In this document: in pieces, positions 49,446 through 50,559 of the stretch
How the letters are laid out: every line of letters starts with the position of its first letter
Numbering within the stretch: position 1 is the first letter of the stretch
IMG/VR virus record: IMGVR_UViG_3300046660_000070
Coordinates: 1-53,234 of that record
Direction: 5' to 3' (one strand)
Source: a virus
Length of the DNA: 53,234 nt
Notes under the pieces: generated by a model
Database searches by the model: none
What the model was told of the DNA's origin: nothing
The model's input: the letters and a program-made list of their open reading frames with translations, nothing else
Made by a program: the position numbers and the translations under genes

Positions 49446-49467
49446 AAAAGCCCCTTAAGAGGGGCGT
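49446..49467 (-). terminator. Minus-strand terminator
   Basis: GCCCC-TCTTAA-GGGGC followed by TTTTCCTTTT on the minus strand. It lies between the genes at 49486-49659 and 49126-49359 and separates two small-gene transcription units. Confidence 0.85.
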
Positions 49468-49796: not shown

Positions 49797-49870
49797 TGGA
49801 GCGGATAGGGGGACTCGAACCCCTCTCATTAGTTTGGAAAACTAAGGCACATCCCCTATACCATACCCGC
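49797..49870 (-). tRNA. tRNA-Gly (anticodon UCC)
   Basis: Acceptor GCGGGTA/TATCCGC, anticodon loop TTTCCAA, T arm GGGGG-TTCGAGT and encoded CCA are intact. Its first five acceptor bases also form stem I of a hammerhead ribozyme directly upstream, which would leave a single extra U at the 5' end. Confidence 0.93.
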
Positions 49871-49920
49871 AGACAGGGGCCGAGGCCCCCGTTTCGTCCT
49901 TACGGACTCATCAGTGCGAG
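49866..49920 (-). ncRNA. Hammerhead ribozyme (type I) at the 5' end of tRNA-Gly
   Basis: All core elements are present on the minus strand in order. Stem I is CUCGCA with UGCGGG. The conserved CUGAUGA (49908-49914) is followed by stem II GUCC-GUAA-GGAC and GAAA (49892-49895). Stem III is CGGGGGC-CUCG-GCCCCUG, led by the A15.1-U16.1 pair. The cleavage triplet GUC ends at 49872. Cutting after C49872 leaves one U before tRNA-Gly, and stem I uses the tRNA's own acceptor strand. It lies 4 bases after the stop codon of the gene at 49924. Confidence 0.93.
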
Positions 49921-49923
49921 AGA

Positions 49924-50559
49924 TCAGGCAGCCGGTTCCTCGTGGGGGAGGATCGGAGCCAGCAGGGCTTCGGCCTGTTGCACCTTGGCCAGCGTGTCAC
50001 CCGTGGCGCCTTCGTGCTGCTTCTTGAGCCACTTGGCAAGCTTTACCTCGAACGGATCGGCGGGACGCCCGACGCCAGAAGCATTGGAGTCCAGGAACGT
50101 GCGGGCGATGCGAACGATGGTGTGGAACGACACATTGTCCGGGTCATCCACGCCCGCGTGCAGGGCCAGCGTATCCTTGCCCATGCCGGCATCCATGGCA
50201 CGCAGGATGGTCGTGAATTCCGACACGCGGACGGTTGCCGACTTCGCGATGCGCCCGAGTTCACGTTCACCCATCTTGGCGAGATTGCCATTGCCCTTCG
50301 CGGCGGCAGTGAGTTCCTTGCGCCATTCCTGCAGGTTCTTCAGCGCGAGTTCACGTGCCTTGGTGGACAGCGCGAACGCAGTCATGACCGTTTCTTGCAT
50401 TTGGGCGGCGTGATTCTGCACCAGACCCCGGAACGTCAGGGCCAGGGCGAGACCCCGGGTTTCGTCACCGGCGATTGCTGCGGCTTCTTGCAGCTTCTTG
50501 CGTTGTTCGTCGGTCAGGTTCGGCTTGCCGACGGGCTTCATTTCGCGAACGTTTGCCAT
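49924..50559 (-). CDS. Hypothetical helical protein, GC-rich gene
   Basis: A 211-residue, nearly all-helical protein rich in Ala, Lys and Glu (DEQRKKLQEAAAIAGDETRG, KNLQEWRKELTAAAKGNG). Its G+C is visibly above that of the replication and structural genes, suggesting later acquisition or strong codon selection. AAAGGAAAG precedes the ATG. It carries the hammerhead in its 3' flank. It is not recognised. Confidence 0.75.
   Translation of the reverse strand: MANVREMKPVGKPNLTDEQRKKLQEAAAIAGDETRGLALALTFRGLVQNHAAQMQETVMTAFALSTKARELALKNLQEWRKELTAAAKGNGNLAKMGERELGRIAKSATVRVSEFTTILRAMDAGMGKDTLALHAGVDDPDNVSFHTIVRIARTFLDSNASGVGRPADPFEVKLAKWLKKQHEGATGDTLAKVQQAEALLAPILPHEEPAA

Follow-up and report, generated by a model that had tools for sequence, protein, structure and literature searches.

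The removal of 5' leaders by RNase P is usually treated as a near-universal step in tRNA maturation. A motif located directly ahead of a tRNA-Gly gene in a viral genome raises the question whether a phage tRNA can obtain its 5' end from a hammerhead ribozyme in its own transcript. The locus is found in a 53,234-base IMG/VR virus record (IMGVR_UViG_3300046660_000070), the whole of which was analyzed and is called the window here. It contains Caudoviricetes-type terminase and capsid genes and eight tRNAs. By class, the element is an ordinary hammerhead, and its fusion to a tRNA is the unusual part. The evidence discussed below makes it probable that a natural type I hammerhead has been fused here to a phage tRNA and serves in cis as a device for tRNA 5' maturation.

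Sequence and Predicted Fold of the Motif

A complete type I hammerhead with an intact core is present on the minus strand of the window at positions 49866-49920. Read from 49920 to 49866, it has the sequence CUCGCA-CUGAUGA-GUCCGUAAGGAC-GAAA-CGGGGGCCUCGGCCCCUG-UC^UGCGGG and continues into tRNA-Gly(UCC). In both the minimum free energy (MFE) fold and the output of a motif finder, the 5' strand of stem I, CUCGCA (49915-49920), forms 6 bp with the 3' strand, UGCGGG (49866-49871). The latter strand consists of U-1 and nucleotides 1-5 of the tRNA and is, thus, common to the ribozyme and the acceptor stem. The core segment CUGAUGA (49908-49914) is followed by the 4-bp stem II, GUCC-GUAA-GGAC (49896-49907 in the MFE fold), and by the second core segment, GAAA (49892-49895), the last A of which is A15.1. 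Stem III, C-GGGGGC-CUCG-GCCCCU-G (49874-49891, or 49873-49891 with U16.1), is a hairpin with a CUCG loop in the MFE fold. It measures 8 bp, or, as counted by the motif finder, 7 bp plus the pair between A15.1 (A49892) and U16.1 (49873). The register of the core sets the predicted cleavage site between C17 (49872) and U-1 (49871).

All conserved core positions, i.e., C3-U4-G5-A6-N7-G8-A9, G12-A13-A14, and A15.1, are present, the closing pairs N1.1-N2.1, N10.1-N11.1, and A15.1-U16.1 are formed in the MFE and centroid folds, and position 17 is not a G (GUC^U). Thus, the element has every sequence feature of the hammerhead class, from which catalysis is predicted. Hammerhead self-cleavage is Mg2+-dependent and yields a 2',3'-cyclic phosphate and a 5'-OH. 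The coordinates, core bases, pairings, and cut position proposed in the original prediction were all borne out by the sequence, ARAGORN, the fold, and the motif finder.

When positions 49866-49920 were folded alone and unconstrained, the MFE and centroid structures were both the hammerhead (-28.5 kcal/mol, z -2.56). The scores with covariance models remained below the thresholds: Hammerhead_3 (RF00008) gave 25.1 bits vs. a curated threshold of 48.5. The RAGATH-1 hammerhead (RF03152) is the best Rfam match that spans the whole motif including stem I, and it also has short, closed stems II and III, but with 23.4 vs. 56.3 bits the window element is not a member of this family by the Rfam measure. 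An HDV-like (theta) ribozyme was not detected in the region at E ≤ 10. In 432 Mb of simulated sequence, i.e., first-order Markov sequence with the dinucleotide make-up of the window region, no hammerhead was found, even when stems of only 4/4/4 bp were required. Similarly, no matches were obtained when 1.97 Mb of fetched loci were reversed, vs. 75 in the real sequences, a number that counts duplicate loci. With its complete core and MFE fold, and with no matches in either control, the hammerhead is not expected by chance.

The tRNA-Gly Locus

The tRNA-Gly gene (49797-49870, minus strand; anticodon UCC, with encoded CCA) was identified by ARAGORN and matches Rfam RF00005 with 43.1 bits. Upstream on the same strand, the ORF list shows a gene for a 211-amino-acid protein without assigned function (49924-50559), for which Pfam and PHROG searches gave no matches. 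Its stop codon, at 49924, is located 3 nt ahead of stem I. Between this gene and the tRNA, the minus (coding) strand shows no promoter-like site, and a terminator-like hairpin (49450-49465, minus strand; found by a pattern scan as a consensus match only) is located 3' of the tRNA and the next small ORF. Therefore, the tRNA is probably transcribed together with the upstream gene. The earlier suggestion that the ribozyme would part the tRNA from the upstream mRNA is also supported. Only tRNA-Gly among the eight tRNAs of the window carries a hammerhead; the other seven have none, including tRNA-Lys and tRNA-Leu, which are equally near an upstream stop codon.

Searches with the terminase, the upstream gene, and tRNA-Gly revealed no close relative bearing this tRNA-Gly. 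Among the terminase relatives, no tRNAs were detected in Alcaligenes phage QDWS535 (40-50 kb checked) or in MW202796 (whole). The upstream gene has one relative in the viral contigs, which is 47% identical and is followed by a terminator-like hairpin in place of the hammerhead. A pattern search for tRNA-Gly gave no match, and none of the collections searched contained an orthologue of the fusion. Myxococcus phage Mx1 and Listeria phage A511 possess distant relatives of the tRNA-Gly, which lack a hammerhead.

Related Fusions in Other Phages

For a broader search, 2.9 million viral contigs were pattern-scanned for hammerhead cores located 55-116 nt ahead of a T loop. Within these scans, the spacing between core and T loop could vary by about 30 nt and that to the tRNA start was unconstrained, and the matches were filtered by the presence of hammerhead stems and by ARAGORN tRNA calls. 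Twelve further hammerhead-tRNA fusions, on tRNA-Tyr or tRNA-His, were found in 11 viral contigs (L009, L012, L013 with two in tandem, L018, L027, L030, L031, L058, L195, L196, and L203). A BLAST search with L018 led to the cultured Stenotrophomonas phage DLP6 (KU682439.2), which has the same fusion on tRNA-His, with the core at 112516, the predicted cut after 112572, G-1 at 112573, and the annotated tRNA start at 112574. This hammerhead is the sole one among the 38 ARAGORN tRNAs of the region, and a ribozyme is not mentioned in the published description of DLP6. The same cluster includes an annotated CTA suppressor tRNA (KU682439.2:113763-113834).

All six relatives that were tested fold as hammerheads, and stems II and III vary in sequence among the relatives with their pairing kept. 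Per relative phage, only one or two of ~20 tRNAs bear a hammerhead, and most phage tRNAs are, therefore, clearly served by RNase P. The identity of the carriers (Tyr, His, and Gly) and their surroundings hint at tRNAs that come first after a protein gene or a gap. ARAGORN reported no tRNA in L030 or in the first unit of L013, and both are clear tRNA-Tyr homologues with encoded CCA by sequence. At L030:1430-1520, a hammerhead is followed, at the cut, by a hairpin RNA, GGGGAAGA...TCTTCCCC, which is not a recognized tRNA and is possibly another ribozyme-released small RNA. The two tandem hammerhead-tRNA-Tyr units of L013 (6470-6756) each follow the same AAAACTAATCAG stretch and differ in their acceptor and ribozyme strands, which are matched within each unit; they represent a duplicated module.

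A contact between stems I and II is required for fast hammerhead cleavage at cellular magnesium concentrations. The Tyr and His fusions share a conserved YAR (mostly CAG/TAG) 3 nt before stem I, which possibly makes a tertiary contact with loop II. The window has no YAR; its loop II is GUAA and the bases after stem I are unpaired. In several Tyr fusions (L012:8290-8460, L031, L058, L195/L196, and L203), an upstream DUF7230 (PF23876) reading frame passes in-frame across the hammerhead and ends within the tRNA, so that the mRNA would lose its stop codon upon cleavage. The DUF7230 homologue of Aeromonas phage Ah1 is a free-standing gene of 117 bp.

Most matches of the relaxed viral scans were chance occurrences, i.e., CTGATGA and GAAA near a real tRNA but without stems, or no tRNA at all. 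A strict pattern search of the bacterial genome collection gave no true hammerhead-tRNA fusion, and four matches from the genome collection (L123-L126) were rejected as they lacked hammerhead stems. When the orientation was inverted (tRNA, then hammerhead), type I hammerheads were found about 13-18 nt past the tRNA, cutting beyond themselves. Since these downstream hammerheads share no strand with the tRNA, the 5' fusion is a distinct arrangement. The tRNA-hammerhead-gene order, seen with tRNAs for Asp, Pro, and Glu (L011:6037, L133:585, L135 on the minus strand, L137:632, and L140:2183), is a separate one. An intact, unannotated type I hammerhead is also present in the cultured Xanthomonas phage RiverRider (MG983743.2:17815), about 360 nt before a tRNA cluster.

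Position of the Predicted Cut and Covariation of Stem I

The predicted cut coincides exactly with the mature 5' end of the tRNA in all 13 relatives, i.e., it is located before G1, or before G-1 in the case of tRNA-His. The fetched loci contain 1,100 tRNAs, and wherever a hammerhead is fused to one of them, its predicted cut lies 0 or 1 nt ahead of the start called by ARAGORN; both His cases are at offset 1 because G-1 belongs to the mature tRNA-His. The window is the only fusion with a real extra nucleotide: with the ARAGORN start at 49870 and the register given by the core, the cut would fall one nucleotide before tRNA-Gly, as originally proposed, and leave U-1 as a leader. Hence, this tRNA still requires RNase P to trim U-1, unless the extra nucleotide is tolerated. 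The proposal that the hammerhead replaces RNase P consequently fits the 13 relatives but not fully the window from which it was derived. The next nearest placement after the fused set is that in L131 (7566-7708), where the predicted cut of a similar hammerhead is located 14 nt ahead of G-1 in a tRNA-His, with stem I outside the tRNA. This is a less tightly coupled form, and exact placement is, therefore, not universal.

Folding, the motif finder, and the pairing statistics all agree with the earlier view that stem I is made from the acceptor strand of the tRNA itself. In the first five pairs of stem I, 65 of 65 are standard over 13 distinct sequences, with many pair types. When the acceptor strands were shuffled among the ribozymes in 5000 trials, the mean was 46 pairs and the maximum 59, and none of the trials reached 65, although this comparison overstates independence because the 13 sequences are partly related. 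The tandem units of L013 illustrate the covariation: their acceptor strands are GCCAG and GCGGG, and the ribozyme strands are changed to match. Furthermore, the Tyr group, L009, the His pair of DLP6 and L018, and the window Gly case differ in tRNA, stems, and surroundings.

Folding of the Transcript and Proposed Mechanism

The full-length window precursor folds otherwise than as a hammerhead plus a tRNA, with stem III pairing with the T arm. In an equilibrium model of the growing transcript, which gives probabilities and not real folding kinetics, the probability of the hammerhead is about 0.5-0.6 for tRNA portions of 7-44 nt and stays below 0.06 for portions of 52 nt or longer. It falls when the T arm appears because stem III then pairs with this arm. 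Several relatives show a similar loss, and L058 and DLP6 keep the fold in part. The competition between the ribozyme and tRNA folds, already suspected from the shared strand, is supported by these results. The modeled profile fits co-transcriptional cleavage but does not prove it.

In the best reading of the data, ribozymes make the 5' ends of these tRNAs co-transcriptionally and also free the tRNAs from the upstream mRNAs. The core and stems II and III would form as transcription moves past the upstream gene. With about 5-7 nt of the tRNA transcribed, the 5' strand of the acceptor would close stem I, and cleavage would follow, before the competing 3' half of the tRNA is synthesized. The upstream mRNA would keep a hairpin-protected 2',3'-cyclic phosphate end, whilst the tRNA would be freed with a 5'-OH and its acceptor strand released, allowing it to fold. 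For the Tyr and His relatives, cleavage would produce the mature 5' end, and RNase P would not be needed. In the window, U-1 would be removed by RNase P, which can act on very short leaders, or may be tolerated. Motif, fold, position, recurrence, and acceptor-strand covariation are computational observations; catalysis in the cell, its timing during transcription, the 5'-OH product, and a benefit to the phage are what we infer from them.

Alternative Explanations

The hammerhead might mainly serve the mRNA, splitting off and stabilizing the 3' end of the upstream transcript, a role suggested for hammerheads between prophage genes, with its position at the tRNA reflecting compact packing and with RNase P making the tRNA end. 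Hammerheads flanking single genes are indeed known in prophages (Perreault et al., 2011; PMC3088659), many of those in our scans are located in mRNA leaders without a tRNA, and the window retains its one-nucleotide leader. However, mere separation of two RNAs needs neither placement to the nucleotide at G1 or G-1, as seen across 13 fusions that represent three or more separate settings, nor covariation of stem I with the acceptor strand, and a role mainly in the mRNA is considered unlikely.

Competition for the acceptor strand, and between stem III and the T arm, could also be read as a structural switch, in which the rate of transcription or translation would select between the cut and an uncut, misfolded precursor and, thereby, regulate the output of the tRNA or the upstream gene. 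The stem III-T arm pairing in the full-length precursor and the collapse of the hammerhead once the T arm is made are in line with such a switch, and in the five Tyr relatives in which the DUF7230 frame passes through the ribozyme into the tRNA, ribosomes could unfold the ribozyme. Yet, a one-way co-transcriptional cut would show the same fold competition, there is no ligand domain, and the upstream ORF in the window ends before the ribozyme. Regulation of this kind, therefore, appears quite improbable. That the element is a chance resemblance or an inactive relic is hardly credible, even though it is present as a single copy in the window phage, is placed one nucleotide off, and lacks close relatives with which it could be compared: the stems and every core position are intact, the random sequence gave no counterpart, and the precise arrangement recurs in other phages. 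Co-transcriptional formation of the tRNA 5' end by the ribozyme thus remains the preferred reading.

Relation to Known Ribozymes

The type I and III hammerheads of phages and prophages (Perreault et al., 2011; PMC3088659) resemble the window element in their core, three stems, A15.1-U16.1 pair, and UH cleavage site, as well as in their phage setting, in which long transcripts are cut into pieces. As far as they are described in the part of that report considered here, they flank protein genes without any fusion to a tRNA, whereas in the fusions described here the acceptor strand doubles as one strand of stem I, and the predicted cut is located at the 5' end of a tRNA or one nucleotide ahead of it.

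Theta ribozymes near the (suppressor) tRNAs of gut phages (PMC10879173) are likewise self-cleaving, act in cis with a phage tRNA, and were proposed to replace tRNA processing by the host; their presence at phage tRNA 3' trailers was described as not reported before. In contrast to the element described here, they have an unrelated, HDV-like fold and are postulated at the 3' trailer instead of the 5' leader. The window has no HDV-like double pseudoknot by the 3' end of the tRNA, and its element is located 5' of the tRNA.

The closest parallel in architecture is man-made. In engineered transcripts (Fechter et al., 1998, in PMC9136035), a hammerhead is placed directly 5' of a tRNA and generates the wanted 5' end with a 5'-OH, and the product is active in aminoacylation. 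Such in vitro-made 5'-OH tRNAs are in standard laboratory use, and full activity in aminoacylation has been reported for them (PMC9136035). The window element and its relatives represent a natural counterpart in phage genomes. No earlier report of a natural hammerhead setting the 5' end of a phage tRNA was found in the open-access literature, although such an absence is not proof.

Implications

It seems fairly likely that phages have repeatedly evolved tRNAs that rely on a built-in hammerhead, and not on RNase P, for their mature 5' end, with 5'-OH tRNAs present during infection and with tRNA-His cut before G-1. The case in the cultured phage DLP6 makes this ribozyme route directly testable. 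If true, it would constitute a second natural RNA-catalyzed route to tRNA 5' maturation beside RNase P and complement, on the 5' side, the theta ribozymes proposed for the tRNA 3' end. It would also provide these phages with an immediate, host-independent release of tRNAs from mRNAs, yielding tRNAs with 5'-OH ends.
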